Program-made: the position numbers and the translations under genes
Notes under the pieces: generated by a model
What the model saw: the letters and a program-made list of their open reading frames with translations, nothing else
Database searches by the model: none
What the model was told of the DNA's origin: nothing
Assembly: GCA_026120185.1 (NCBI GenBank)
Contig: JANUWF010001636.1
Location: forward strand, 1,302,001 to 1,366,000
Direction: 5' to 3'
Length of the DNA stretch: 64,000 nucleotides
DNA from: Voacanga thouarsii
Lineage: Eukaryota; Streptophyta; Magnoliopsida; Gentianales; Apocynaceae
In this document: piece by piece, positions 19,411 through 56,452 of the stretch
Layout: each line of letters begins with the position of its first letter
Numbering within the stretch: position 1 is the stretch's first letter

Positions 19411-20239
19411 CTATACAAGATTTTCACTCAAGTATTCAAAACAGCAAAATTTGGCGGGAAAGTTTTCTATCTCCTTCACATTCAAGGTTCAAGATTCTGG
19501 CATGCCATGCCCATCAAAACTGTGCAAACTGAGAAATTAAATGCTGGCTGAAAAACAATGAAATTGAAGAATACGATTTCTCGACAATGAAGTAGCCAAA
19601 CTATATGCAAGAACTTTCAATCTTGAAACATTGGAAGAAAACATGTGGCTATGATCAAAGAACATCCTTGCACGAATGAAGCTTCTGATAATGATGCCCA
19701 GTATTGTCAAGAAGAAATCAGGAGAAGAAGACAGAACAGGGTGGGGTAAACGGGATATCAATGTGTAACTGAAACCACAAATGAGGATGCTGGGGGAGCT
19801 GTAAGTTGGCAAGAAAATGCTGACTGTGGATAAGAAAGGAAATACTCAGACGACAAATGAGAATGCCGCCAATGCAATATCTGCTTAAACTGAGTGATTG
19901 GATATTTAATTTCTAATGGCGTCTGATAGTCTACAATTTTTGTGATTGATTCCAAGTACTGTCAAATTCAGAGGGCCACTTGTCCAAACATGTGAAGGGA
20001 GTTAAGAAGCCTATGATTCCTATGTTGTCTGGTTTTTTGGAAATGTCCACGTTATCCATTTCACGTCTTTATCTTTCTTCTTTTAATTTCCCAAGATTGG
20101 TTGAGAAGATGGGAGGTTTTTGTTTATTGGTCGGATGTTACCTCGCAAATCAAGCTGAGCACAGGTGTAATTATTGGCATTACAATAATATACAAAAAAT
20201 AAATAGTAGTATTAATTATTTAAAAGAAAAGGTTAATAA
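19411..20239. other. Upstream flank of the JAC1-like gene
   Basis: The probable promoter and 5' leader of the minus-strand JAC1-like gene. The short open frames here overlap on both strands and resemble no known protein. The region ends at the AATAA target-site duplication of element A (20235-20239). Confidence 0.35.
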
Positions 20240-20595
20240 TGTTATAAAATTAGAATAGTGTTAGAATAAAATCTACACACTACACATTAAGAAAATTCTA
20301 ACTATTCTTTGCACAAGAATTTTTCTCTTTCTTTTCTCTCACAATTTTCTCTAATCTTTCTTTCACTAATCTTTCTTTCACAAAATAATGGTGTATTACA
20401 AGCTTAGAGAATAGCCCTATTTATAGAGCTCTAATTAGTGGAATACATCATGGCATACATCATCTTCCAATAATCTCAATTAGTGGTGTCTCCACTAAAT
20501 GGTGGACATCCATAAAAATCTTCTATAATAATTCACATAAATCCATAATTAGTGGAGCCTCCACTAATTAATGGAGATTCCAATAATTCATAACA
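20240..20595 (-). repeat. 3' LTR of element A
   Basis: Matches the 5' LTR at 25058-25413 in length (356 bp) and nearly in sequence. On the minus strand it holds a TATAAATAG box (plus 20417-20425). It is preceded on the minus strand by the polypurine tract. Confidence 0.92.
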
Positions 20596-20720
20596 CTCCC
20601 CATTGGATGTCCATCCATTACATAAAGAATATGCCTCGTTAAAACTTTACTAGATAAAAACCCAATGGGAAAAAAAATCTAGTGAAGGAAAAAGAGTACA
20701 CTATTCTATATGTTTGTTTA

Positions 20721-22900
20721 TTACTCTCCCTGATGAGATGATTCCTTTAAATCTTTAAACCGACGCATACCAATTTTATATCTCAACTTCTCAAATGTTG
20801 CAGTCGGTAAAGTCTTCGTGAAAATATCTGCGAGGTTATCACATGACCGAATTTGTAGCACATCAATTTCACATTTCTTCTGGAGTTCATGAGTAAAGAA
20901 GAATTTTGGTGAAATATGTTTTGTCCGATCTCCTTTAATATATCCTCCTCGTAATTGAGCTATGCAAGCTGCATTGTCTTCATAAAAAGGAGTTGGAATA
21001 TCTTTGATTGATGATAATCCACAACTTTCTCGGATATAATGAATCATGGATCTTAACCATACACATTCTCAACTTGCTTCATGAATGGCTATAATTTCTG
21101 CATGATTTAAAGAAGTAGCTGCTATAGATTGTTTCGTAGAACACCATGATATAGCAGTATTTCCACATGTAAATAGATAGCCCGTTTGAGAATGTGCTTT
21201 ATGTGGATCAGATAAATAACCAGCATCTGCATAACCTATCAATGTTGGATTGGTTTTATTTGAATAAAATAATTCGAGATCAATTGTACCTTGGAGATAT
21301 CTAAGGACTTGTTTAATTCCATTCCAATGTCGTCGTGTTGGTGAAGAACTAAATCTTGCTAATAAATTGACAGCAAAAACAATATCAGGTCGTGTATTAT
21401 TAGCAAGATACATCAATGCACCAATTGCACTGAGATATGGTACTTCAGGACCAAGGAGTTCTTCATCATTTTCTTGAGGTCGGAAAGGATCTTTATCCAC
21501 ATTTAATGATCGGACGATCATTGGAATACTCTATGGATGTGCTTTGTCCATGTAAAATCTTTTTAGCACTTTTGCTGTATATGTTGATTGATGAATAAAT
21601 GTTCCACTCTCCAGATGTTCAATTTGTAAACCAAGGCAAAATTTGGTTTTACCAAAATCCTTGATTTCGAATTCTCTTTTTAAATAATCAATTGTTTATT
21701 GGAGCTCTTCAGGAATTCCAATAAGATTAATATCATCAACATATATAGCTAATATCACAAATTTAGAACCAGATTTCTTAATAAAAACACATGGACATAC
21801 CTGGTCATTTTTAAATCCCGCTTTTAATAAATATTCACTAAGACGTGTGAACCACATGCGCCCAGATTGCTTCGAGCCATATAATGATTTCTGCAACTTG
21901 ATGGAGTAATTTTCACGAGGATAATGTTTATATGCTTCGAGCATATAAAATCCTTCGGGATTTTCATGTAAACATCATTTTCTAAATTTCCATACAAGTA
22001 AGCAAGTGACAACATCTAATAGGCACATATCTATCTTTTCATGTATTGCCAAACTGATAAGATATCGGAGTGTAATAGCATCAACAACAGGAGAATAAGT
22101 TTCATCATAATCAATACCTGGTCTTTGTGAAAAACCTTGGGCTACTAATCGCGCTTTATATCGAACGATTTCACTCTTTTCATTGCGCTTTCGCACAAAT
22201 ATCCATTTGTAGCCAACAGGTTTTACACCTTCCGGTGTTCGGATCTGCAGTCCGAAGACTTCACGTTGTGTCGGTGCATTTAACTCCGATTGAATCGCAT
22301 CTTTCCATTGCAGCCAATCTTTTCTATGCCGACATTCATCAACTGATATTGGTTCAGGATCATCACTATCCTGTATAACATCAAGAGATATTATATGCAA
22401 ACATATGATCAATAATTGTTTCTATCCGATTCCAATTTCTATCGAAAGTGGTATAATGGATAGAAATTTCAGTGTTACTTTCATTTATGTCTGGTTCTTT
22501 GTCATAAGTTTTCTCTTGGTCTTTATCATTCTTTGCTTTAATATGATCATCTGGACCATTAATCATCTCTTCTTTCGAGGATTTTTATCTTTAGAACTAA
22601 GAGGTCGGCCATGCTTCTGGCATGCTTTTGGCTCAGCAGTTATATGTAAAATCTTTTGTTCTGTTGGAACTTCAATTAGAATAGGAGCATTTATAGCTGG
22701 CATATGCGATTTTGTTACTCTTCTAGAGTCAACAAAAACGTCTGGCATTTGATTTGCAATGCTTTACAAATGAATTATCTTTTGAACTTCAAGTTCACAC
22801 GCGCTTGTATGCGGATCAAGATAATTTAATGATGTTGTCCAATCACGATCTTTCTTGTACTGTTTCTGTTCTCCCCCTAATTTAGGGAATAATGATTTCA
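20721..22900 (-). pseudogene. Copia reverse transcriptase / RNase H remnant of element A
   Basis: Read from 22900 downwards, this holds the segment just after integrase (LFPKLGGEQ), the Copia RT (KARLVAQGFSQRPGIDYDET, QKSLYGSKQSGRMWF and the catalytic YVDD near 21740) and RNase H (IGYADAGYLSDPHKA, LADIFTKTLPTATFEKLRYK). There are several frameshifts and stops, for example after the LLDVVT segment near 22000, before the YGNLENDVYMKIP block, and a stop before ECVWLRSMIHY near 21070. It cannot make one full polyprotein. Integrase and protease are absent, replaced upstream by the RKD segment. Confidence 0.88.
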
Positions 22901-23062
22901 CAAGAGAATAAGAAAAGAAATATAAGAAAATGATGACAAGCAGGAAATGCCAAGAAAAATATCTCCTTTTTTTTTTCACTCTTCCCGGTACCGACTTTTC
23001 ATCTTCCTCCCTTGTCTTTTCTTCTCCTCCGACCCTCTACCTACCATCTACCTCTTCTTCTT

Positions 23063-23116
<54 letters not shown>

Positions 23117-24475
23117 GTATCGATATATATCTCAGTTATCAGTCATTAGTAAATATTAAAAACAAAAATCACAAAGCAGATATGGAGACTCGTAATTCAT
23201 TTGAGACATGGTCAAATTTTGACTCGGTTTCTGCAGCAGATGTTGATGTATTTTCCTTTCCAAACCAATCGCTTCTGCCTAATTCGAACGCAGAAGATTT
23301 TGATATGTTTTCCTTTCCAAACCAATCGCTTTCTCCTAATTTCAGGTGAGATACCTTTGAGGGCTTCCATTTGTTTTTAGTATGCTTGATAATGAAATTA
23401 AACTCTCTTTTGGTTTGTTTTTTATGTAAATCAGTGGAAGTTTTGAACATACTGTTTTGGACCAAGTTGATCTGCCCCTACAAGAGACTGCTTTTGATAC
23501 TGTTCCTCTTGATGCTCTTCCTTTGAATGAGGATATGCTTGTGCATGATCCTTTCTACTCTCTAATGGATTTTGAACAAAGCTAGAATATGTTTCCAGGT
23601 TATTATACATTTAAACATGGATTTTGAATGGTATTACCTTTACTGATATTATTTTCTTTTTCTAGGAGAAATAATGAGTGGTCTTGGCAACGAAGTCGGA
23701 GTAAGTACTCATGAAATGCATAATATCGAAGTTCAAGATATTATTGCAGACAAAATTCCGGGGAGAAGAAGATGATTAAGAGGCGAGAGAGAGAAGAAGG
23801 GCAATAACTCCCAGACACTATCAAGAGAAATAATTTCGCAGTACTTTTACCTACCAATCAAGAGCGCAGCCAAAGAACTGAATATTGGCATAACCCATCT
23901 CAAGAAAAGATGTAGGGAGTTAGGAATTCATCGATGGCCTCACAGGAAATTGGTGAGCTTGGAGACCATAATCAAGAATGTTCAGGTTCTCTCTTATACA
24001 TACTTATAATTTGCAAGTATGAAACTATGAAAGATTTATAAGTAAATAACCGATTATATCACTTCGATTTACAGGAGACAAGCATGCTTCAAAGCCAAAT
24101 ATAATAAGAAATTTAATTATAATAAACTTAAGGAGATCATAAAATCTTAAGACTCATTTTGCAGTAATTTTACGGCTAATTCTGCTGCTAGTCTCGATGC
24201 TGACTCAAAGGGGAAAGAAAATGAGGAGGATGTCGAAAAAGAGGAGCTGAAGTCCATAATTACTAATTTTTTGTCTTCCTCTAATGTAAATATTGAAAAA
24301 GAACAATTACAAACTTTCATCTTACATTTGTCAGCTCAATTACAAAAGAGCAACTATAAGCATGTATCCTCAAGTTCATATGAACACTAGTGATATGAAT
24401 AAAAGATGTGATGCTTATTATTAATGAAAATATATTTTTCCCTTATTATCTTTTCTGTTCTACTTCAGGTGGCCA
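22900..24475 (+). pseudogene. Captured RWP-RK (RKD-type) transcription factor gene segment in element A
   Basis: Plus strand, opposite to the element. The first exon appears to run 23182-23345 (MET-RNSFETWSNFDS; repeated VFSFPNQS motifs) with a GTGAGA donor. A second runs about 23435-23598 (GSFEHTVLDQVDLPLQETAF; acidic and hydrophobic, as in RKD N-termini). Then come an EWSWQRS segment and the RWP-RK domain (SQYFYLPIKSAAKELNIG, LKKRCRELG, RWPHRK at 23932-23949). RQACFKAKYNKK, a conserved RKD C-terminal motif, follows an intron. Defects are a TAG in the second exon near 23582 (CAAAGCTAG, where element C has CAAAGCCAT), one extra base before the domain near 23783, and loss of about 135 bp present in element C. 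RKDs control egg-cell and embryo programmes. The family call is strong; function here is doubtful. Confidence 0.85.
23066..23115. repeat. (CA)n(TA)n microsatellite 5' of the RKD segment in element A
   Basis: A run of about 18 CA units followed by TA repeats, just upstream of the first RKD exon. Element C has only a (TA)n tract at the equivalent place (about 53984-54010). Confidence 0.9.
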
Positions 24476-25040
24476 GTATTTCTCTGTGATAAGGGAAATA
24501 TCAAGTGTGTCCATGACCATAACCATGGCCACTGCCACAACTACGACTATAACGATGGCTTCTGTTGGAGCCAACAGCATTCACTTCTGGGAGTGCTGTT
24601 GAGCCAGTTCATCTGGCTTCATGATTTCTCAATAATAACTCATGTTAAAGCTGTCAATTTTGGATACCCTTTTTCTCGATATTATTACTGTAGGACATGA
24701 AAAGTGGAGAATGTCTTCTCCAATATAACTTCATCAATAACTTTTTCTCCGTAAAATTTTTAACTAAGATGTAGTTTTATACATCACAGAGTTCACGGTT
24801 TTACAATCTTGCAACTTCAGGTGCAACCATTCATACCGTGCAGTGGGTAGTACGACCATCTTCAGGTGGTCAAATCTTTCTTTTTATCCACATGACATAT
24901 GGATCTCCTTTTTTTTAGCATTTAGATGCATTTCTGTATGACATATAAATTTTTTTTTTTTAGAAATATCAAGGGCTACAAATTCGAATTTAGCGAGATC
25001 AATAAATGCGTACTTGTCTTCTGGTTTTAATAATGGCAGA
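24476..25040 (-). pseudogene. gag remnant of element A
   Basis: On the minus strand the leader runs into a Copia gag start (LAKFEFVALDIS, compare LTKLEFAALDII in element B), then scattered gag pieces (HQKMVVLP-like and LLRNHEA-like) and the Gly/His-rich GHGYGHGH tail. Frameshifts, stops and deletions make it non-coding. The zinc knuckle that should follow is missing because the RKD segment begins there. Confidence 0.75.
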
Positions 25041-25057
25041 GACTCGTGCTGATAACG

Positions 25058-25413
25058 TGTTATAAAATTAGGGTAGTGTTAGAATAAAATCTTCACACTA
25101 CACACTAAGAAAATTCTAACTATTCTTTGCACAAGAATTTTTCTCTTTCTTTTCTCTCACAATTTTCTCTAATCTTTCTTTCACTAATCTTTATTTCACA
25201 AAATAATGATGTATTACAATCTTAGAGAATAGCCCTATTTATAGAGCTCTAATTAGTGGAATACATCATGGCATACATCATCTTCCACTAATCTCAATTA
25301 GTGGTGTCTTCACTAAATGGTGGACATCCATAAAAATCTTCTATAATAATTCACATAAATCCATAATTAGTGAAGCCTCCACTAATTAATAGAGATTCCA
25401 ATAATTCATAACA
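25058..25413 (-). repeat. 5' LTR of element A
   Basis: 356 bp, TG...CA ends on both strands. Followed on the minus strand by CGTTATCAGCACGAG, the putative primer-binding site, and on the plus side by the AATAA duplication. Confidence 0.92.
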
Positions 25414-25430
25414 AATAAATATAAGTATTG

Positions 25431-25731
25431 TATTATGAATCACTATTCACATTCTTAACAATAGTAGGTGGCTATTCATTTTCTTGAAGATAATGTGCCT
25501 GTTCGTATACTGTGACCGTTCGTTTTTTTAAAGTTATTAAATTTATTTCTTAACCTTTCAAATTCTGTAACCTTTCAGATTCTATATCGAAACCTCTATA
25601 AATAGGTCATATGTAAACAAACGAATAATTAATAAAATCGTATCTAAACGATTCTCTCTCTTCTCTCATCTTCTCTCCTCTTTACTTTATTTTTATATTT
25701 ACTAATTCTATTTTGAATCAAATTCACTACA
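25431..25731 (+). repeat. 5' LTR of element B
   Basis: 301 bp with a TATAAATAG box at about 25597-25605. It contains a 15-16-bp internal duplication around aacctttcaaattctgta that the 3' LTR lacks, which explains the length difference. Confidence 0.9.
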
Positions 25732-25830
25732 CGTTATCAGCACGAGGCTCTACTGAAACTGTTTTACTAAAGGTTATCATCACGGGCTATAACAAAAGAG
25801 GATACTTTTCCTATTTGCTTTTGTATTCAC

Positions 25831-26902
25831 GTGGCAAATCTCACCAAACTTGAGTTTGCCGCTCTTGATATTATTGGAAAAAACTATTTATCTTGGACAT
25901 TAGATGCTGAAATGCATTTAGCTGCAATGGGTTTGGCAGATACCATTATAGAAGAAAATCCATCATCATCACAAAATGATGCTAAAGCTATGATTTTCCT
26001 CCGCTATCACCTTCATGATAACTTAAAGGTTGAATATCTTACCGTGAAAAATCTATTTATTTTGTGGACTAATTTAAAAGAAATGTTTGATCACCAGAAG
26101 ATGGTCGTCCTTCCAAAGGCACAGTATGACTAGATACACTTGCGATTACAAGATTTTAAATCCGTTAGTGAGTATAATTCTGTTATTTTTAAAATTAGCT
26201 CGCAGTTAAAACTGTGTGGAGAAAATATTATTGATGAGGATATATTAGAAAAAAATTTCTCTACTTTCATACCTCGAATGTGCTCCTGCAGCAGCAATAT
26301 CGAGAAAAAGAATTCAAAAAGTATGCAGAATTAATATCTTGTCTTCTCGTAGCTGAGCAAAATAATGAGTTATTAATAAAAAATCATGAAACTCGACCAA
26401 CATGTTCTACTCCATTCCCAGAAGTGAATGATGTTAAAACTCGTAATTTTGGCCTTGGAAGAGGTCGTGGTCATGGATATGGCCGTGGCCGTGGACATAT
26501 ATATAATCGTGATAAAAATATTCATTATGATTGCAACAGTCAAACAAAGTTATGAGAAATAATGACAACTACCAGAAGTGGCCAAAGACTAACGTGAAAG
26601 GAAAAGGAAATGATGTTGTTCCTAAAAATTATGAAAATAAATGTTATCGCTGTGGCATAAAAGGTCATTGGTCTCGTACTTGTCGTACTGCAAAACACCT
26701 TATTGATCTGTATCAGGCGTCTATTGAGAAGAAAGGCAAAAATGCTGAAGCAAATTTTACTCTACAACATTCTCTTCATGATAATGATGATATCAACCTT
26801 GACGATGTTGATGTAACTTATTTGGATGTGGCTGATTTCTTTGAGCATCCTAAAGAAAGAATTGAGCATTTGATTGGTGATGGAAATGTCCAAAAGAATT
26901 AG
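25831..26902 (+). pseudogene. gag of element B (broken)
   Basis: The reading begins at 25831 with GTG where the family has ATG (MANLTKLEFAALD context). It continues through a Copia gag with a stop near 26131 and frameshifts near 26280 and 26550. The Gly/Arg-rich RGRGHGYGRGRGH stretch precedes a CCHC zinc knuckle near 26640 (CYRCGIKGHWSRTC). The knuckle residues are intact, but the open frame is split into at least four pieces. Confidence 0.85.
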
Positions 26903-26930
26903 AAATTTACTTTTAATATATTTCTTTTTG

Positions 26931-26933
<3 letters not shown>

Positions 26934-26972
<39 letters not shown>
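26934..26972. repeat. (AT)n microsatellite inside element B
   Basis: About 39 bases of alternating AT between gag and pol of element B, probably expanded after insertion. Confidence 0.85.
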
Positions 26973-26977
<5 letters not shown>

Positions 26978-27052
26978 GTATTGTAATAGTAATTAGCGTT
27001 TAAAGTTTTATTATTTGAATATTTAAATTTATAAATATTTTGTTATGCCCAG

Positions 27053-30000
27053 ATGGCTATTATTCCGCTTACTGGATACACAAGTGGCATTGAAGATATA
27101 TGCCTAATTTATAGTGGTACAACACATACCATATTGAAAGATAGAAAATATTTATCCTACCTGCAGATGGGAGAAACAAATGTTAATACTATAAGTGGTA
27201 GTGTAAAGTTGATTGAAGGCTCCGAAAGAGCTAATATTGTACTACCCGGAGGAACAAATATTGTTATTCCTAAAGCGTTATTTTCTTCCAAATCTCGCAG
27301 AAATTTATTAAGCTTTAAAGATATTCGCCGAAATGAATATCACATTAAAACAATGGAAGAAAATGGTTTTGAGTATCTCTGTATTACTCAAATAATGTCG
27401 GGTAAGAAATCTTTATTAGAAAAGCTACCATCTTTTTCATCTAGCCTATATAGCACAAAAATCCATGCAATTGAAGTGCATCATTCAGTAAATCAAAAGT
27501 TTACTGATCCTACTACATTTATCATTTGGTATGACCATTTGGGTCATTCAGGAGTTATTATGATGCGAAGGATAATTAAAAATACGCATGGTCATCCTTT
27601 GAAAAGTCAAAGGATTTTGACATCTGATAAATTTTCATGTGCTGCATGTTCTCAAGGGAAATTGGTTGTTAAACCATTTCCAACAAAATTGGAGTTTGAG
27701 TCTCCAGTATTTCTAGAAAGAATTCATGGTGATATATGTGGACCAATTAATCCACCATGTGGGCAATTCAGATACTTTATGATTTTAATTGATGCATTGA
27801 CCCGATGGTCGCATGTCAGTTTTTTATCAACTCGCAACTTGGCGTTTGCGAGATTGCTTGCCCAAATAATTCGCTTAAGAGCGCAATTTCCAATTTATCC
27901 TATCAAAATGATCCGTCTAGATAATGCTGGAGAATATTCCTCCCAAGCTTTTGATGCTTATTGCCTGTCAATTGGCATTACTATTGAACATCCAGTAGCT
28001 CATGTTCATACTCAGAATGGTCTAGCTGAATCATTCATTAAATGGTTACAATTAATTTCTAGACCGTTATTAATGAGAACAAATCTCCCGACAACTGCTT
28101 GGGGACATGCTATTTTGCATGCTGCAGCACTTGTACGCCTAAGGCCAACAAGTTATCACAAATTTTCTCCCTTACAATTGGCTTTTGATTCCGAGCCAAA
28201 TATTGCTCATTTGAGAATTTTTGGGTGTGCTATATATGTACCGATAGCGCCAAATCAACGTGCCAAAATGGATCCTCAAAGAAGGTTGGGGATATATGTT
28301 GAATATGATTCTCCCTCTGTAATCAGATACATTGAACCATTGATAGGTGACGTATTCACAGCAAGATTTGCTAATTGTCATTTTGATGAAACTTTGTTTC
28401 CTAAATTAGGGAGAGAACATAAACCACATAAAAAGGAGCTTGCCTGGGCAACATCATTGAATTATTTAGATCCGCGCACAAGCGCAAGTGAACTAGAAGT
28501 TCAAAAGATCATTCATTTGCAAAGACTTACAAATCAACTGCCAGATTCTTTTGCAGACTCTACAAGGGTAACTAAATCGCATATTCCAGCTATCGATGCT
28601 CCTATTCGGATAGAAGTCCCAATAGGACAAAATACAATTCCTATAGCTACTGAATCAAAAACACGTCAGAAATGTGGATGATCCATTGGTTCAAAAGATA
28701 AAAATTCTCGAAAGAAAAGTGGATTAAATGATCAGAATAATCCAATTGAAGAATTAGGAAAAAGAGATCAAGTAGAAACTGATGAAAAGATTCAAATATC
28801 TGAAAATAGTGAACAGAATAGTGAGATGTCCATTAATTATATAACTTCTGGCAGAAGTTGGAATCGGACAGAAATAACTGTTGATAATATTTTTACATAT
28901 AATATATCACTTGAAGTGTTAAAAGATAATGAGGATTCTGAACCAATATCAGTTGAAGAATGTCGTCATAGAAATGATTGGTCAAAATGGAAAGATGCGA
29001 TTCAATCGGAGTTAAACTCACTTGCAGAGTGTGAGGTTTTTGGACTTGTAGTCCGAACACCAGAAGGTGTAAAACCCACTGGTTATAAATAGGTATTTGT
29101 GCGAAAGCGAAATGAAAATAATGAAGTCGTAAGATATAAAGCACGACTTGTGGCACAAGGTTTTTCGCAGAAATCGGGTATCGATTACGATGAAACATAT
29201 TCACCTGTGGTGGATGTAATTACACTCCGATACCTTATGAGTCTAGTAGTACGTGAAAAGATTGACATGCGTTTAATGGATGTTGTGACTGCTTATTTAT
29301 ATGGGAACCTTGATAATGATATTTATATGAAAATCCCATAAGGATTTAGTATGCCTGAAGCATATAATTCTAACCCTCATGAAAATTATTCCATTCGATT
29401 ACAAAAGTCATTATATGGCTTAAAGCAGTTTGGACGCATGTGGTATAATCATTTTAGTGAATATTTATTGAAATTAGGATATAAAAATGATCCACTATGT
29501 CCATGTATTTTTATTAAGAAATCTAGATCTGGTTTTGTAATACTTGCGATATATGTTGATGATATTAACCTTATTAGAACTCCAGAAGAACTACAAAAGG
29601 CAAGAAATAGCCTGAAGTAAGAATTTGAAGTCAAGGATTTTGGCAGAATCAAGTTTTGTTTGGTTTACAAATTGAGCATCTGGAAGATGGTATTTTTATT
29701 CATCAATCAACATACACAACAAAAGTTCTTAAAAGATTTTACATGGACAAAGTACATCCATTAAGTTCTCCAATGGTCGTGAGGTCGTTAGATATAAATA
29801 AAGATCTTTTTCGACCTCGGGAAGATAATGAAAAACTACTTGATCTTGAAGTACCATATCTCAGTGCAATTAGTACATTAATGTACCTTACTAATAATAC
29901 TAGACCTGATATAGCATTTTCTGTGAATTTATTAGCAAGATTCAATTCTTTCCCAACACGTCGACATTAGAATGGGATTAAACATGTCCTAATATATCTC

Positions 30001-30558
30001 CAATGGACAAAGGATCTTGGATTATTTTATTCAAATAGAACCAGTCCAATGTTGATTGGATATGCTGATGCTGGTTATCTATCCGATCCATATAAAGCAC
30101 GTTCTCAAATTGGTTATTTATTTACATGTGGTGGTACTGTTTTATCATGGCGCTCTACAAAATAATCTATAGCAGCTACTTCTTCTAATCATGCTGAAAT
30201 TATAGCTATTCACGAGGTAAGCCGAGAATGTGTGTGGTTGAGATCAATGATCCATTATATCCGAGAAAATTGTGGATTACCTTCTGAAAAGGAAATTTCA
30301 ATACCTCTTTATGAAGATAATGTAGCTTATATAGCTCAATTAAAAGGTGGATATATTAAAGGAGATAGGATAAAACATATTTCACCAAAATTTTTCTTTA
30401 CTCACGAACTCCAGAAGAGAGGTAAAATTGATGTGTAATAGATTCGATCATGTGATAATCTGGCAGATTTACTCACTAAGGCATTGCCGACTGCTTCATT
30501 TGAAAAATTAGTACATAAAATTGAAATGCGTCGGTTGAAAGACATAAATGCATCTTGA
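27053..30558 (+). pseudogene. pol of element B: protease, integrase, reverse transcriptase, RNase H (broken)
   Basis: The longest open piece (27053-28681) holds the protease and integrase. The protease motif reads YSGTTHT where DSG is expected, so the catalytic Asp is lost. Integrase has the HHCC zinc site (WYDHLGHSG ... CAACSQGKL) and the catalytic D, D and E (HGDICGP, RLDNAGEY, GLAESF). After stops near 28681 and 29091 come the RT (KARLVAQGFSQKSGIDYDET; YVDD near 29555) and RNase H (YADAGYLSDP, HISPKFFFTHEL). Further stops lie at about 29341, 29620, 29970, 30165 and 30438. Integrase residues are intact but the polyprotein is not. Confidence 0.9.
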
Positions 30559-30784
30559 AGATGTTATTAAGAGGGGGAGTATGTATACTTTACTCTTTTT
30601 CCCTAACTAAGATTTTTTCCTATTGGGTTTTTTCTTAGTCAGGTTTTTAATGAGGCAGTATTTCCTCCAGAATGGAAAGTGTACTCTTTTCCTTCACTAG
30701 GTTTTTATCCCACAGGGTTTTTCCTATGAAAGTTTTTAACGAGGCATTTTTCGAAATGATTGAAAATGAACATCCAAGGAGGAA

Positions 30785-31070
30785 TGTTATGAATGACTAT
30801 TCATATTCTTAACAATAGTAAATGATTGTTCATTTTCTTGAAGATAATGTGACTGTTCGTATACGGTGACCGTTCGTTTTTTTAAAGTTATTAAATTTAT
30901 TTCTTAACCTTTCAAATTCTATATCGAAACCTTTGTAAATAGGGGTTATATGTAAACAAATGAATAATTAATGAAATCGTATCTAAATGATTCTCTCTCT
31001 TCTCTCATCTTCTAGTATCTTTACTTTATTTTTATATTTACTGATTCTATTTTGAATCAAATTCACAATA
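30785..31070 (+). repeat. 3' LTR of element B
   Basis: 286 bp, starts TGTTATGAATGAC and ends CAATA, followed by the TATTG duplication. Confidence 0.9.
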
Positions 31071-35300: not shown

Positions 35301-37890
35301 CCATAAAAATCTGATACCAAGAAAATCTGCATATATAACAAAAGTATCTGTGCCCCATGAAAAGTTTCAAAATATACATGATTGTAAAAGGTAGATAAAA
35401 TGACATTCTTCTGTTCTCTCATAGAGGTACCAAATTGTACTCGAAGACTACAATTGCAAGATATAAGCACCCCAGCTTGCTTCTTGATGACTATTTCTTT
35501 TCAAACAATACCGAACACTCAATTTGAATATGCACACCTTAAGGCTTGTCAAAAACTCACCGTCGAGTTGACATCCCTTATGCTGTCTAAGGCTTTTTTT
35601 TTTTTCCTTTTCTTTAAGACTCTTTATTAACATAAACAAAATAAACCCAACGCATGAGAGTGGCAGGACCGATAACTTGCCTGTAATGGGAAAACAATCC
35701 TCCAAAGTGTCCTCAACAGAAAATAGCGAGATGATAAAAAGAATATATCAAAAGGAAAAATGAAAGTCATAGCAATGGCAGCATACAGTAGCACCTGCAG
35801 CAGATGTGCAATTTTCAGTAATATATAAAGATAGAATAAGAGGTGCTTACCAGCATACATGTTTTGCAATATAACAGCATCATTACGAAAAAAGCTAATT
35901 CAAATGAAAATTTACACAGACGACCACAGTGAAAATGAGAGAATAGGTATCAAAAACCATTTATGTATGGAAAAAACAAATTTTGAGAGAAGAAGCATCT
36001 ATTACACTGGTTGGAATGCAGCTAATGACACTTCTCCATGAGAATAAAGATACAGATATGCCGTCATGCTAGTTGGGACAACGATTGTCATCCACGTGGC
36101 ACACTGCAAAAATGAAAAGGAATATAAGCAGACCTTGACAGCACTTCATGTTTAAAAAAAAAAAGAAAAGGAAATAGTCATCTTTGATCATTTAGATAAT
36201 GCAACTTTCCAAGTCTATGCATATGAATGGTAGACAGTGTTAGCAATTTAGAGAATGAACTTTTGAACTTCAAGCAAATATTACTTTATTATCTGAATAT
36301 TAGCAATAGATTCACAATTGATAAGCAACTGTGTAACAAATAAAATATCATACATATCTTTACCTTCCATATTTCTCTATGAGTAAGATGATTTTGATCA
36401 AGGTCAAATATTTTAGCATAATTGACACTACCCTGTCCAAAAACCCATAGATTCACTCCCCAAAGCCAGACTGCCATAGTCTGCAATAAGTGAGCATAAA
36501 AAGAACAGCATCAATGATACTGACAGGAGAATAGAGATATTAGATTTTCCAACAGCTTGGATAAAGAACTTCACTAACCACAAGTAGAAGAGGATTATAA
36601 TACAGAAAAGCTTCATACAAAAATAAATCCCGCAGATCTGCACTCATTCTCATCACTGAATCCCATCCAATCTACATCAGATAAATGAATCCACCATTAG
36701 CTAACATGTGATCCAGCCACAAATTTCCTTTGCTAACATGTGATGCCAAAAGATCTGTCTAAGGGATAAACCAGTAAATATTTAGAAAGTTGTCAAACTT
36801 ACCTTGCAGCAAGTGAAACCCCAGATGAAAAACAACAATATCTGAAAACAAACCTTCATTAGACTCTTACAAGTATATGCAAAGAAAGTCCAAGATTAAA
36901 ACTAAATCATTAAAGCTCAAAGAAGACAAAGACAGACTCAAAATTGCAAGGTAACTAGTGAAACAAATAGTTAACTTCTCTTTCATACTCTCCAATATAT
37001 GATTAGAGTTTCCAAGTGAATTTCTGTAGGCCATCCTTTCATATGAAGTAGAAAACTCCAAAACAGATAGGATTTCTTAGACAAAATCACTCTGCTTCTC
37101 AGAAAGCAAAGTACCGATTGCTGTCCAATGACCTTCAAGGGCACAGCACTTTTACCTCAGACAAGTTTCTCATACTCTCAGCTTCCAACAACATTGATTA
37201 ATTATTGTAAATCCTTACAAATGTTTCTTAATTAAGACACATACAAAACATCCACTCTCAAGATTTTATGGTACCTTGAATCTCCATAGCAGAACAGGAG
37301 AGGGTAATATTACAGTTGTACTCAATGGTGTAGTCACACCCTTCATTTCATTGGACTCTGAATTCAAGATATCTCCTTCTGCACTATTTACTGCATCACT
37401 TGTATCTGAATTTATTCTATTATAGCAATTCTTTTTGCTTTCTTAACCAATTCACTACATACATTATTTAAGAGCAGTATTACTGCATCAACATTGATTA
37501 ATTATTGTAAATCCTTACAAATGTTTCTTAATTAAGACACATACAAAACATCCACTCTCAAGATTTTATGGTACCTTGAATCTCCATAGCAGAACAGGAG
37601 AGGGTAATATTACAGTTGTACTCAATGGTGTAGTCACACCCTTCATTTCATTGGACTCTGAATTCAAGATATCTCCTTCTGCACTATTTACTGCATCACT
37701 TGTATCTGTAAGTCGATATACTGCTCTTAAATAATGTATGTAGTGAATTGGTTAAGAAAGCAAAAAGAATTGCTATAATAGAATAAATTCAGCAATCAAA
37801 CCCTGTCTTACCAAGATCAAAAACAACTGGTCGGCTACCAGACTTCCGTAAATGCGGACTGTTTGAAGCAGATACAGGACCTCCAAACAT
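32340..37890 (-). CDS. EXS-domain (ERD1/XPR1/SYG1) multi-pass membrane protein without SPX domain
   Basis: Thirteen exons on the minus strand: 37890-37812, 37705-37575, 36841-36803, 36671-36579, 36480-36364, 36103-36008, 35794-35681, 35237-35184, 34539-34492, 33845-33695, 33283-33118, 32852-32783 and 32597-32340. They total 1416 bases, 471 residues, with all phases consistent. The protein is the short plant EXS type (like At5g35730): IGWDSVMRMSADLRDLFLYE, DQNHLTHREIWK, FPFDIFFLSSRYFLLRTLWR, SDLERSVCRMVH, YSFYWDVTRDWDL, ENEWNKM. Several hydrophobic membrane segments are visible. EXS domains occur in phosphate exporters (XPR1/PHO1) and in the yeast Golgi protein Erd1; lack of an SPX domain argues for an Erd1-like Golgi role. 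The intron after exon 7 has a GC donor (CAG|gcaagt). Exon 2 is duplicated nearby; the copy at 37575-37705 is used here. Confidence 0.9.
37189..37790. repeat. Direct repeat (220 bp, exact) plus inverted repeat (~72 bp) around EXS exon 2
   Basis: 37189-37408 and 37489-37708 are identical by eye at an offset of exactly 300. Each contains the whole 131-bp exon 2 with its donor. The spacer 37408-37479 is the reverse complement of 37718-37789. The layout is repeat, X, repeat, short spacer, inverted X. The inner copy keeps the natural cttacag acceptor; the outer copy has gained a possible attcag acceptor from inverted X. Including both exons would shift the frame, since 131 is not a multiple of three. 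Confidence 0.95.
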
Positions 37891-51144: not shown

Positions 51145-51501
51145 TGTTATAAAATTAGGGTAGTGTTAGAATAAAATCTACACACTACACACTAAGAAAA
51201 TTCTAACTATTCTTTGCACAAGAATTTCTCTTCAAACTTCTCTCTTTCTTTCTCTCACAATTCTTTCTCTAATTTTTCTTTCACTAATCTTTCTTTCACA
51301 AAATGATGGTGTATTACAAGCTTAGAGAATAGCTCTATTTATAGAGCTCTAATTAGTGAAATACATCATGGCATACATCATCTTCAATTAATGGTGTCTC
51401 CACTAAATGGTGGACATCCATAAAAATCTTCTAATAATTCACATAAATCCATAATTAGTGGAGCCTCCACTAATTAATGGAAATTCCAATAATTCATAAC
51501 A
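51145..51501 (-). repeat. 3' LTR of element C
   Basis: 357 bp, TGTTATAAAATTAGGG start and ATTCATAACA end, close to the LTRs of element A. A minus-strand TATAAATAG box is present. Confidence 0.92.
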
Positions 51502-51609
51502 CTCCCCTTGGATGTCCATCCATTACATAAAGAATATGCCTCGTTAAAACCTTACTAGATAAAAACCCAAGTGGGAAAAAAATCTAGTGAAGGAAAAAGA
51601 GTACACTAT

Positions 51610-53815
51610 TCTATATGTATGTTTATTACTCCCCCGATGAGATGATTCCTTTAAATCTTTAAACCGACGCATACCGATTTTATATCTCAACTTTTCAAAT
51701 GTTGCCGTCGGTAAAGTCTTCGTGAAAATATCTCGCGAGGTTGTCACATGACCGAATTTGTAGCACATCAATTTCACCTTTCTTCCGGAGTTCATGAGTA
51801 AAGAAGAATTTTGGTGAAATATGTTTTGTCCGATCTCCTTTAATATATCCTCCTCGTAATTGAGCTATGCAAGCTGCATTGTCTTCATAAAGAGGAGTTG
51901 GAATACCTTTGATTGATGATAATCCACAACTTTCTCGGATATAATGAATCATGGATCTTAGCCATACACATTCTCGACTTGCTTCATGAATGGCTATAAT
52001 TTCAAGATGATTTGAAGAAGTAGTCGCTATAGATTGTTTCGTAGAACGCCATGATATAGCAAGATTTCCACATGTAAATAGATAGCCCGTTTGAGAACGT
52101 GCTTTATGTGGATCGATAAATAACCAAAGATCTCGCATAACCTATCAATGTTGGACTGGTTTTATTTGAATAAAATAATCCGAGATCAATTGTACCTTGG
52201 AGATATCGAAGGACTTGTTTAATTCCATTCCAATGTCGTCGTGTTGGTGAAGAACTAAATCTTGCTAATAAATTGACAAATAAAGCAATATCAGTGCCGT
52301 GTGTTATTAGCAAGATACATCAATGCACCAATTGCACCGAGATATGGTACTTCAGACCAAGGAGTTCTTCATCATTTTCTTGAGGTCTGAAAGGATCTTT
52401 ATCCACATTTAATGATCTGACGATCATTGGAATACTCAATGGATGTGCTTTGTCCATGTAAAATCTTTTTAGCACTTTTGTCGTATATGTTGATTGATGA
52501 ATAAATGTTCCACTCTCCAAATGTTCAATTTGTAAACCAAGGCAAAATTTGGTTTTACCAAAATCCTTGATTTCGAATTCTCTTTTAAATAATCAATTGT
52601 TTCTTGGAGCTCTTCAGAGTTCCAATAAGATTAATATCATCAACATATATAGCTAATATCACAAATTTAGAACCAGATTTCTTAATAAAAACGCATGGAC
52701 ATACCTGGTCATTTTTAAATCCCGCTTTCAATAAATATTCACTAAGACGTGTGAACCACATGCGCCTGCATTGCTTCAGTGCCATATAATGATTTCTGCA
52801 ACTTGATGGAGTAATTTTCACGAGGATAATGTTTATATGCTTCGTGCATATGAAATCCTTCGGGATTTTCATGTAAACATCATTTTCTAAATTTCCATAC
52901 AAGTAAGCAAAGTGACAACATCTAATAGGCGCATATCTATCTTTTCATGTACTCGCCAAACCGATAAGATATCTGAGTGTAATAGCATCAACAACAGGAG
53001 AATAAGTTTCATCATAATCAATACCTGGTCTTTGTGAAAAACCTTGGGCTACTAATCGCGCTTTATATCGAACGATTTCACTCTTTTCATTGCGCTTTCG
53101 CACAAATATCCATTTGTAGCCAACAGGTTTTATACCTTTCCGGTGTTCGGACCGCAGTCCGAAGACTTCACGTTTTGCCGTTGCATTTAACTCCGATTGA
53201 ATCGCATCTTTCCATTGCAGACCAATCTTTTCTATGCCGACATTCATCAATCGATATTGGTTCAGGATCATCATTATCCCGTGTAACATCAAGAGATATA
53301 TTGTATGCAAATATATTATCAATAACAGCTTTCTATCCGATTCCAACTTCTACCTAAGTGGTATAATTGATAGAAATTTCAGTGTTACTTTCATCAACTT
53401 CTGGTTCTTTGTCATCGCTCTCTCTTGGTCTTTATCATTCTTTTCTTCAATATGATCTTCTGGATCATTTAATCCTCTTTTCTTTCGAGGATTTTTATCT
53501 TTAGAACCAAGAGGTCGGCCATGCTTCCGGCATGCTTTTGGCTCACAGACCTATAGGTATAATATTTTGTTCTCACTGGAACTTCAATTCGAATAGGAGC
53601 ATTTATAGTCGGCATATGCGATTTTGTTACTCTTCTAGAGTCAACAAAAGCGTGCTCGGCATTTGATTTGCAATGCTTTACAAATGAATTATCTTTTGAA
53701 CTTCAAGTTCACATGCGCTTGTATGCGGATCAAGATAATTTAATGATGTTGTCCAATCACGATCTTTCTTGTACTGCTTCTCGTTTCTCCCCTTAATTTA
53801 GGGAATAATGATTTC
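51610..53815 (-). pseudogene. Copia reverse transcriptase / RNase H remnant of element C
   Basis: Same content as the pol remnant of element A (KARLVAQGFSQRPGIDYDET, YVDD near 52650, TGYLFTCGN, HISPKFFFTHEL) but with more frameshifts. For example, LADIFTK is broken near 51732 by an extra base and GYADAGYLSDP is scrambled near 52120-52140. It is non-coding as read. Confidence 0.85.
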
Positions 53816-55470
53816 ATAAGAGAATAAGAAAATAAATATAAGAAAATGATGACAAGCAGAAATGCCAAGAAAAATATCTATTTTTTTTTCACTCTTCCCT
53901 GCACCGACTTTTCATCTTCCTCTCTTGTCTTTTCTTCTCCTCCGACCCTCTACCTACCATCTACCTCTTCTTCTTCCTCATACGTATATATATATATATA
54001 TATATATATGTATCGATATATATATCAGCTTATCAATCATTAGTAAACATCAAAAACAAAAATCACAAAGCAGTATATGGAGACTCGTAATTCATTTGAG
54101 ACATGGTCAAATTTTGACTTAGTTTCTGCAGCAGATGTTGATGTATTTTCATTTCCAAACCAACCGCTTCGCCTAATTCGAACACGTAAGATTTTGATAT
54201 GTTTTCCTTTCCAAACCAACCACTTCCTCCTAATTTCGTGTGAGATACCTTTGATGGCTTCCATTTGTTTTTAGTGTGCTTGATAATGAAATTAAACTCT
54301 CTTTTGATTTGTTTTTGATGTAAATCAATGGAAGTTTTGAACATACCGCTTTGGACCAAGTTGATCTCGCCCCTACAAGAGACTCGCTTTTGATACTCGT
54401 TCTTCTTGATGCTATTCCTTTGAATGAGGATATGCTTGTGCATGATCCTTTCTACTCTCTAATGGATTTTGAACAAAGCCATAATATGTTTCCAGTGTTA
54501 TTATACATTTAAACATGGATTTTGAATGGTATTACCTTTATCGATATTATTTTCTTTTTCTAGGAGAAATAATGAGTGGTCTTGGCAACGAAGTCTGAGT
54601 AAGTACTCATGAAATGCATAATATCGAAGTTCAAGATATTATTGCAGATAAAATTCCCTGGGAAGAAGAAGATGATTAAGAGGCAGAGAGAGAAGAAGGG
54701 CAATAACTCCCGGACACTATCAAGAGAAACAATTTCGCAATACTTTTACCTACCAATCAAGAGCGCAACCAAAGAATCGAATATTGGCATAACCCGTCTC
54801 AAGAAAAGATGTAGGGAGTTAGGAATTCGTCGATGGCCTCACAGGAAATTGGTGAGCTTGGAGACCATAATCAAGAATGTTCGTGTTCTCTCTCATACAT
54901 ACTTATAATTTGTAAGTATGAAACTATGAAAGATTTATAAGTAAATAACCGATGATATCACTTCGATTTACAGGATATGCAAAATAAAGAAGAAGGAGGA
55001 CATATGGCCGAGAAGAAATTACAAGAAGCCATTGCGATATCGGAATGTGAAAAACAAGCTAGTGGAAGAAAGTCCTAATACGCAGCTAGAGGACCAAACA
55101 CGTAAATTGAGACAAGCATGTTTCAAGGCCAAATATAATAAGAAATATAATAAACTTAAGGAGATCATAAAATCTCAAGACTCATTTCGCAAGAATTTTA
55201 CTGGCTACTTCGCCGCTAGTCTCGATGCCGGCTCAAAAGGGAAAGAAAAGGAGGAGGATGTCGAAAAAGAGGAGTTGAAGTCCATAATTACTAATTGTTT
55301 GTCGTCCTCTAATGTAAATATTGAAAAAGAACAATTACAAACCTTCATCTTACATTTGTCACTCAATTACAAAAGAGCAACTATAAGCATGTATCATTAA
55401 GTTCATATGAACACTAGTGCTATGAATAAAAGATGTGATGCTTATTATTAATGGAAATATCTTTTTCCCT
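53815..55470 (+). pseudogene. Captured RWP-RK (RKD-type) gene segment in element C
   Basis: Plus strand, antisense to the element. The first exon starts at 54077 (METRNSFETWSNFD) and is frameshifted near 54170-54190. The RWP-RK domain is intact in one frame at about 54674-54890 (ISQYFYLPIKSATKESNIGI, LKKRCRELGIRRW, RWPHRK at 54831-54848). After an intron (acceptor tttacag before 54974) this copy keeps the RKD C-terminal region missing from element A: MAEKKLQEAIAISECEKQ, then, one base out of frame, LVEESPNTQLEDQTRKLRQ and ACFKAKYNKK. A further tail rich in Lys/Glu/Ser runs to about 55397. A region-wide open frame does not exist, and one frame break just before the domain (DD then stop, near 54678) lies at the same place as a break in element A. 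Confidence 0.85.
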
Positions 55471-56070
55471 TATTATCTTTTCTCGTTCCACTTCGGTGGC
55501 CAGTATTTCTCCGTGATAAGGGAAATATCGAGTGTGTCCATGACCATAACCACGGCCACCGCCACAACTACGACTATAACGATGGCTTTCGTCGGAGCCA
55601 ACAAGCATTCACTTCGGGAGTGCCGTTGAGCCGCTTCATCCGGCTTCATGATTTCTCAATAATAACTCATGTTAAAGTTGTCAATTTTGGATACCCTTTT
55701 TCTCGATATTGTTACTCGTAGAACATGAAAAGTGGAGAATGTCTTCTCCAATATAACTTCATCAAGCAACTTTTTCTCCGTAAAATTTTTAACTAAGATG
55801 TAGTTTTATACATCACGGAGTTCACGGTTTTACAATCTTGCAACTTCGTGTGCAACCATTCATACCGTGCATAGGTAGTACGACCATCTTCGAGTGGTCA
55901 AATCTTTCTTTTTATCCACATGACATATGGATCTCCTTTTTTTTTTAGCATTTAGATACATTTCTGTATGACATATAATTTTTTTTTCGTAAATATCAAG
56001 GGCTACAAATTCGAATTTAGCGAGATCAATAAATGCGTACTCGTCTTCTCGGCTTTAATAACTGTAGAGA
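55471..56070 (-). pseudogene. gag remnant of element C
   Basis: Minus-strand pieces of Copia gag (GYGHGHTR near 55550, LAKFEF near 56010), like those in element A, interrupted by stops and frameshifts. No zinc knuckle is present. Confidence 0.7.
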
Positions 56071-56085
56071 CTCGTGCTGATAACG

Positions 56086-56452
56086 TGTTATAAAATTAGG
56101 GTAGTGTTAGAATAAAATCTACAAACTACACACTAAGAAAATTCTAACTATTCTTTGCACAAGAATTTCTCTTCAAACTTCTCTCTTTCTTTCTCTCACA
56201 ATTCTTTCTCTAATCTTTCTTTCACTAATCTTTCTTTCACAAAATGATGGTGTATTACAAGCTTAGAAAATAACTCTATTTATAGAGCTCTAATTAGTGA
56301 AATACATCATGGCTTACATCATCTTCAACTAATCTCAATTAATGGTGTCTCCATTAAATGGTGGACATCCATAAAAATCTTCTAATAATTCACATAAATC
56401 CATAATTAGTGGAGCCTCCACTAATTAATGAAAATTCCAATAATTCATAACA
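56086..56452 (-). repeat. 5' LTR of element C
   Basis: 367 bp, followed on the minus strand by CGTTATCAGCACGAG and on the plus side by the ACTAT duplication. Confidence 0.92.

Follow-up and report, generated by a model that had tools for sequence, protein, structure and literature searches.

The window analysed here, a 64,000-nt stretch of contig JANUWF010001636.1 from Voacanga thouarsii (assembly GCA_026120185.1) to whose positions all coordinates refer, contains a Copia-type long terminal repeat (LTR) retrotransposon, element A (20240-25413, minus strand), in which an RKD-like gene of the RWP-RK family lies in antisense between gag and reverse transcriptase (RT). Our preferred reading, to which we assign a probability of about 70%, is that a Copia element captured a whole genomic RKD-like gene in antisense and became a non-autonomous high-copy family whose one maintained gene is the RKD. 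RKD-type genes control egg-cell identity. The label RKD, used both for the captured gene and for a host locus, L002, is tentative and is based on characteristic motifs and on 58% identity over 59 aa between their proteins.

Structure of the chimeric element

A first-pass annotation had proposed that this stretch holds an LTR retrotransposon with a captured RWP-RK gene, and both the profile searches and the genome-wide recurrence of the chimera support it. The domain is indeed RWP-RK (Pfam PF02042, E 4.4e-23, 81.4 bits against a cut-off of 29.3), and the codons of the RWPHRK motif lie exactly where they had been placed, at 23932-23949. The announced 5' flank and exons are present as well: the gene comprises four exons (23182-23345, 23435-23598, 23666-23985 and 24075-24389) joined in phase and separated by three GT-AG introns of 89, 67 and 89 nt. 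Its location on the plus strand of a minus-strand element, its retained introns, its broken state in A, the presence of a further copy in the window and the existence of a family that includes both go beyond that annotation. In A, the gene is disrupted in three exons: exon 2 contains an in-frame TAG, the frame of exon 3 is broken, and exon 4 has a stop and lacks 135 bp at its start that the second copy, element C, retains. The parts of element A are as follows.

20235-20239: left copy of the target-site duplication, AATAA (direct reading)
20240-20595, minus strand: 3' LTR, 96.9% identical to 25058-25413 over 356 bp
20606-22900, minus strand: RT/RNase H remnant with a broken frame (RVT_2 match in two pieces; aligned to element B from 28387)
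22905-23181, plus strand: 5' flank (promoter region) taken up with the RKD gene and containing a CA/TA microsatellite, in partial alignment with the 5' side of locus L031
23182-24389, plus strand: captured RKD gene, broken in A
23782-23997, plus strand: RWP-RK domain region
24390-24475, plus strand: captured 3' flank and gag-side junction
24476-25057, minus strand: gag remnant lacking a long open reading frame (ORF), a 66% match to the gag of B; longest open stretch 57 aa
25058-25413, minus strand: 5' LTR, paired with 20240-20595
25414-25418: right copy of the target-site duplication, AATAA (direct reading)
25433-31066, plus strand: element B, a Copia relative that has another LTR and retains its integrase, used as the yardstick for the losses of A and C

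The well-defined LTRs and target-site duplication of the first-pass annotation are thus confirmed, and in both A and C the TG...CA ends and the 5-bp duplication agree with those of Ty1/Copia elements. The RT of A is of the Copia type, with two RVT_2 (PF07727) matches in a Pfam search (E 3.4e-21 and 3.2e-15), while the two pieces nearest the 3' LTR (21069-21530 and 20721-21068) gave no Pfam match. In comparison with B, a foreign insert of about 1.55 kb stands where the end of gag, the protease and the integrase belong, as had been claimed for the latter two. The junctions proposed near 22900 and 24475 were recovered to different degrees. On the RT side, the junction lies at about 22898-22905, the alignment to B ending at 22900 (28387 in B), whereas on the gag side similarity to B can be followed to about 24510 and is weak beyond, so this junction is placed only within about 24435-24475. 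Apart from simple repeats, the captured 5' flank (22905-23181) has no match in B. Just past the junction point, B encodes an SH3_retrovirus domain (42.8 bits, over the cut-off) and shows rve and gag_pre-integrs matches slightly under their cut-offs (30.7 and 23.5 bits). According to the Pfam search and the alignment, this integrase region is missing from A and C, neither of which has the gag, protease and integrase of its own that define an autonomous element.

A candidate primer-binding-site-like sequence, read by eye, adjoins the 5' LTR of A. The same sequence is seen in B, which begins about 20 bp beyond the end of A (25413-25433) in the opposite orientation and with another LTR. In A, the CA repeat of the captured 5' flank (23066-23110) exceeds that of C by about 20 bp. 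Elsewhere in the window, a 223-bp direct repeat (99.6-100% identity) occupies 37186-37792, with a 75-bp inverted copy close by.

A second copy in the window and a high-copy family

Further copies of the chimera, for which the first-pass annotation advised searching, were found both in the window and throughout the genome. Element C (51145-56452) is the entire chimera again, inserted independently, and is flanked on both sides by the duplication ACTAT.

51145-51501, minus strand: 3' LTR of C
51530-53817, minus strand: RT/RNase H remnant (alignment to B)
54077-55416, plus strand: captured RKD gene with the 135 bp missing from A (aligned to A; RWP-RK E 6.5e-20)
55490-56085, minus strand: gag remnant (alignment)
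56086-56452, minus strand: 5' LTR (LTR comparison)

The duplications of A and C differ (AATAA and ACTAT) and their flanks are unrelated. Moreover, the four LTRs cluster per element, 25 alignment columns separating A from C and none pairing 5' with 5' LTRs, with 11 differences in 356 sites within the pair of A and 7 in 357 within that of C. Therefore, the chimera was formed before these two separate insertions.

The genome of the window itself (1,345,666,469 bases, 1.35 Gb) was searched for RWP-RK domains, giving 3,618 first-look candidates. The 150 best were scored, and every one of them exceeded the Pfam cut-off with no stop within the match. We retrieved 48 of these 150, eight in a short form (L001-L008) and 40 in a 6.8-kb form. 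Among the latter, 39 of 40 presented the order LTR-RT-RKD in a single orientation, the exception being L031, and a long gag stretch was present in 35 of these 39 chimera copies. Parts of the chimera were also found in six of the eight short-form loci, and none in L001 and L002. The 126-bp RT/RKD junction was 100% identical at all 40 scored places, A included (40 of 1,581 first-look candidates), and a complete count of a 31-nt word spanning this junction, allowing up to 3 mismatches, retrieved 2,508 places genome-wide, with 0 for the reversed control.

This recurrence excludes chance or misassembly as the source of the chimera. A juxtaposition of an RKD gene and Copia fragments by accident or by the assembler would fit the assembly-type errors seen at CTG/CAG sites in C, but it is refuted by the junction found at 2,508 places and by the separate target-site duplications of A and C, and we give it practically no credence; a single-capture or misassembly reading was dropped in view of element C and of the recurring junction. 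The chimera is a high-copy family that has moved as a unit, repeatedly and until recently. Its share of the genome would be about 13 Mb, or 1%, if all 2,508 copies were full length (5.3 kb), which is an upper figure given the truncated copies.

Divergence between paired LTRs (K) ranged from 0 to 0.103 with a median of 0.030 among the 38 copies, including A and C, in which both LTRs are present, indicating movement until recently, and a strict search recovered a target-site duplication in 20 of these 38. Assuming a borrowed rate of 1.3e-8, quoted in passages of PMC10011142 and PMC5664825, the median copy, and A about equally, would be about 1.2 million years old. A tree of 46 RKD segments (A and C included; L003 left out for its short match, and L001, L002 and L031 because they are not the element) shows several subfamilies and one star-like young burst.

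C groups in this tree with L047, L034 and L040, possibly owing in part to read errors common to them. In these four copies, CTG and CAG are strongly depleted (observed/expected 0.36 and 0.47, against 1.05-1.23 in the window outside elements), being changed to CCG, TCG, CTCG or CGT, unlike the C-to-T change of methylated C. This loss is best read as long-read errors at CHG-methylated sites. Consequently, frames and divergence in copies such as C are unreliable: its RKD has several frame breaks, some at CTG/CAG sites resembling read errors, and the difference between A and C in their non-LTR parts was dropped as a measure of age. When CAG/CTG contexts are set aside, the difference between the two elements is 3.6% in RT, 3.6% in RKD exons (30/829) and 3.1% in introns (7/227). 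These similar values show no constraint in the two copies after insertion, as expected of dead copies.

Apparent maintenance of the RKD reading frame

The start codon and the GT-AG sites are retained in most of the 46 aligned copies. An open RKD frame of 382-401 aa, from ATG to native stop, was found in five of them (L014, L015, L033, L036 and L041) under a model tolerating small splice-site shifts, three of which (L015, L036 and L041) are free of caveats. NLP proteins bear a PB1 domain; in the 384-aa frame of L041, RWP-RK was the sole Pfam domain at E up to 0.1. A search of solved structures returned 0 matches at E up to 0.01. Exon 1 contains a 57-bp (19-aa) in-frame repeat whose number differs among copies, e.g., L015, L041 and L014. 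As for the element's own genes, the RT region was fully open in none of 41 copies, the longest open stretch being 103-565 aa, and the longest gag stretch did not exceed 67 aa in 33 of 37 copies, with values of 93-245 aa for the remaining four. Two of the gag stretches, in L027 (245 aa) and L012 (147 aa), exceed those of other copies and are possible traces of recombination with a fuller relative.

The clearest signal comes from shared insertions and deletions (indels), defined as those present in three or more copies. Considering all lengths, the multiples of three were 9/13 in RKD exons, 1/7 in RKD introns, 5/20 in flanks, 2/29 in RT and 6/21 in gag. The four exon exceptions are all 1-bp insertions; the extra base stands at CTG in 11 of 13 rows, and at or beside CTG in L035 and L011, this triplet being a recognised site of errors in the assembly. 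With only indels of at least 2 bp, the exons gave 9/9 with each of the references L041, L036 and L015, against 5/16, 6/18 and 5/18, respectively, in introns and flanks (p 0.0006-0.001); RT gave 2/13 or 3/12. Substitutions point the same way between subfamilies, where the context-matched ratio of nonsynonymous to synonymous changes (N/S) outside the domain was 0.69-0.79 for RKD and 0.98 for RT. The fixed-versus-singleton test gave an odds ratio of 1.00 for RT.

Several observations weigh against a maintained frame and must be set beside these results. No uninterrupted RKD frame exists in 41 of the 46 copies, A and C included; and of the five open frames, that of L033 depends on moving a splice site, while in L014 a portion of exon 1 is translated in a different frame. 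Taking L014 as the reference, the exons gave only 7/10 against 7/19 (p 0.13), since the frame changes in exon 1 of L014 itself are then counted as shared. Indels seen in a single copy were multiples of three in 13 of 26 exon cases, already above one third. The RKD N/S was 0.81-1.06 within the young subfamily and 0.94-1.06 for the three most distant copies, shifted-frame controls scattered between 0.78 and 1.63 outside the domain, one RT control frame gave an odds ratio of 2.57 (p 0.007), and the fixed-versus-singleton test for RKD outside the domain was not significant (odds ratio 0.57, p 0.064). In addition, we sampled from a list ordered by the RWP-RK domain, so that dead lineages are under-represented and low change within that domain proves nothing. 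The low N/S inside the domain (0.15-0.36) was discarded as evidence on this ground. A raw, uncorrected N/S of about 0.5 outside it was set aside as well, since close pairs show this value too, pointing to mutation bias. Owing to this ranking, the tests show that constrained lineages exist, rather than their share of the family.

Taken together, the comparisons suggest, with statistical support that stops short of proof, that the RKD frame was kept in spreading lineages while the gag and RT frames decayed. The RKD protein has probably benefited the element itself, its survival in the host, or both.

Host relatives of the captured gene

The donor RKD gene, whose search the first-pass annotation had advised, was not found among the RWP-RK loci retrieved (48 of the best 150 of 3,618), although a relative was. 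L031 is an RKD locus without element pieces in 6.8 kb, whose DNA is 74-78% identical to the captured RKD in the main blocks, including intron 3, with a short similarity in the 5' flank. It lacks intron 2 and its frame is broken. L031 is counted as kin of the donor and not as the donor itself. L002, in turn, resembles an ordinary host RKD gene, its DNA being 69% similar to the element over 146 bp. On contig C1026, a chimera copy (L035) is located about 5 kb from this ordinary-looking gene.

Probable origin of the family and alternative explanations

From the structure of the copies, a Copia-type element would have taken up a genomic RKD-like gene with its 5' flank, four exons, three introns and a short 3' flank, which replaced, in the opposite orientation, the end of gag, the protease and the integrase. 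A spliced RKD mRNA is excluded as the source because the introns and the promoter region are present. The capture could have occurred through an antisense read-through RNA over the RKD locus that was packaged and joined by template switching, or through two truncated elements flanking an RKD gene and transcribed as one unit. Lying in antisense, the introns would not be spliceable from the element's own RNA and would thus survive each round of reverse transcription. Since the integrase is gone and gag and RT are unusable in the copies read, the family presumably moves in trans, with the help of related autonomous elements. The captured promoter region would drive transcription of the RKD, opposite to the direction of the element.

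What such a protein could do for the element leads to a more tentative proposal, in which the family would selfishly transport a factor for germ-line identity: expressed from the captured promoter, RKD would open egg or early-embryo cells, where insertions are inherited, perhaps via TTAGTGG/CCACTAA sites in the LTRs. These words number 3-6 per LTR in the 16 LTRs of eight copies, against 0.045 expected from the window's other sequence, and the 5' LTR of A holds four, clustered upstream of a TATA-like CTATAAATA. We regard this proposal as unlikely; if true, the family would have traded gag-pol for control over host cell identity, like viruses carrying host regulators.

The maintenance of the frame is precisely what is disputed if the RKD is inert cargo, spread through retained LTRs and packaging signals, its frame only seeming kept because few source copies existed and the sample was ranked by domain. 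The 41 broken copies out of 46, the fixed-versus-singleton p of 0.064, the N/S near 1 inside the young subfamily and the ranking of the sample would all be expected of such a passenger. Nevertheless, exons 1, 2 and 4 lie outside the ranking, yet shared indels of at least 2 bp (exon 3 included) are multiples of three in 9/9 cases with three of four references, against 2/13 in RT, and the RT of the same copies appears neutral. We consider a neutral passenger rather unlikely.

Alternatively, the RNA rather than the protein could be what matters, LTR-driven antisense RNA pairing with sense RNA from the captured promoter to yield small RNAs by which the element is held in check or host RKD genes are affected. 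In favour of this, A, C and the 39 fetched copies all have the RKD in antisense, a homologous non-element RKD locus exists (L031), and PMC7264820 reviews other plant LTR elements with antisense transcription. This offers no reason for a preserved reading frame, however, and L002, the one clear host RKD gene seen, is a poor match for direct targeting at 69% over 146 bp. We hold RNA cargo to be improbable as an account of the family. The effects suggested by the first-pass annotation, namely the spread of RKD regulatory sequence and small RNAs against the parent gene, may occur, and the link that it drew to nucellar embryony in Citrus serves as context. Capture followed by maintenance of the RKD in spreading lineages remains the reading that we prefer.

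Comparison with known systems

Associations between RWP-RK genes and LTR elements have been described in pearl millet, in which RWP-RK genes overlap intact LTR elements and the expansion of the family is tied by the authors to that of the LTR elements (PMC10011142). Pearl millet, however, is a grass, and the passages concerned are silent on orientation, introns, RKD type, thousands of copies and decay of element genes.

As regards the antisense arrangement, the closest parallels are the additional antisense ORFs of Grande, RIRE2, Retand and PvRetro13, also carried by many copies of each family, whose origin and function are called unknown in the passages of PMC7264820 that treat them; that of Grande has its own promoter and a nuclear protein product (PMC7264820). 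These ORFs are located between pol and the 3' LTR and, according to the same passages, have no known relatives outside the elements. In contrast, the gene described here lies between gag and RT, not between pol and the 3' LTR, replaces the protease and the integrase, and can be recognised as a host gene of RKD-like type that has introns.

Host genes carried between LTRs are also known from pepper, where NLR retrogenes, like the RKD, belong to an amplified regulatory or defence family. The passages of PMC5664825 describe them as derived from spliced mRNA and treat the absence of introns as the hallmark of uptake by an LTR element, whereas the captured RKD keeps its introns and promoter region. 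The orchid Ty3/Gypsy elements with an AlkB RNA demethylase likewise form a plant LTR lineage with a fixed extra gene of host type, although, as presented in the part of PMC9289625 cited, the function is another and the carrier is a 25-kb Gypsy element, instead of a 5.3-kb Copia derivative without integrase. Maize Bs1 and tomato Rider/SUN transport host gene sequence as well, but they concern gene segments or single events in the account of PMC13317346, not thousands of antisense, intron-bearing transcription factor copies. In searches of the open-licence PMC literature, no title or listing retrieved described an RKD inside a Copia element.

The family of Voacanga thouarsii would offer an antisense extra gene of a plant LTR element that is recognisable as an RKD-like host gene, amplified to thousands of places and apparently the only gene that the family has kept. 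Mobile DNA may account for most of the RWP-RK genes counted in this genome, and possibly in other genomes. Together with the pearl millet report, as far as its passages go (PMC10011142), these observations suggest repeated uptake of RWP-RK genes by LTR elements, and they make the benefit that an element could draw from egg-cell regulators a testable matter.

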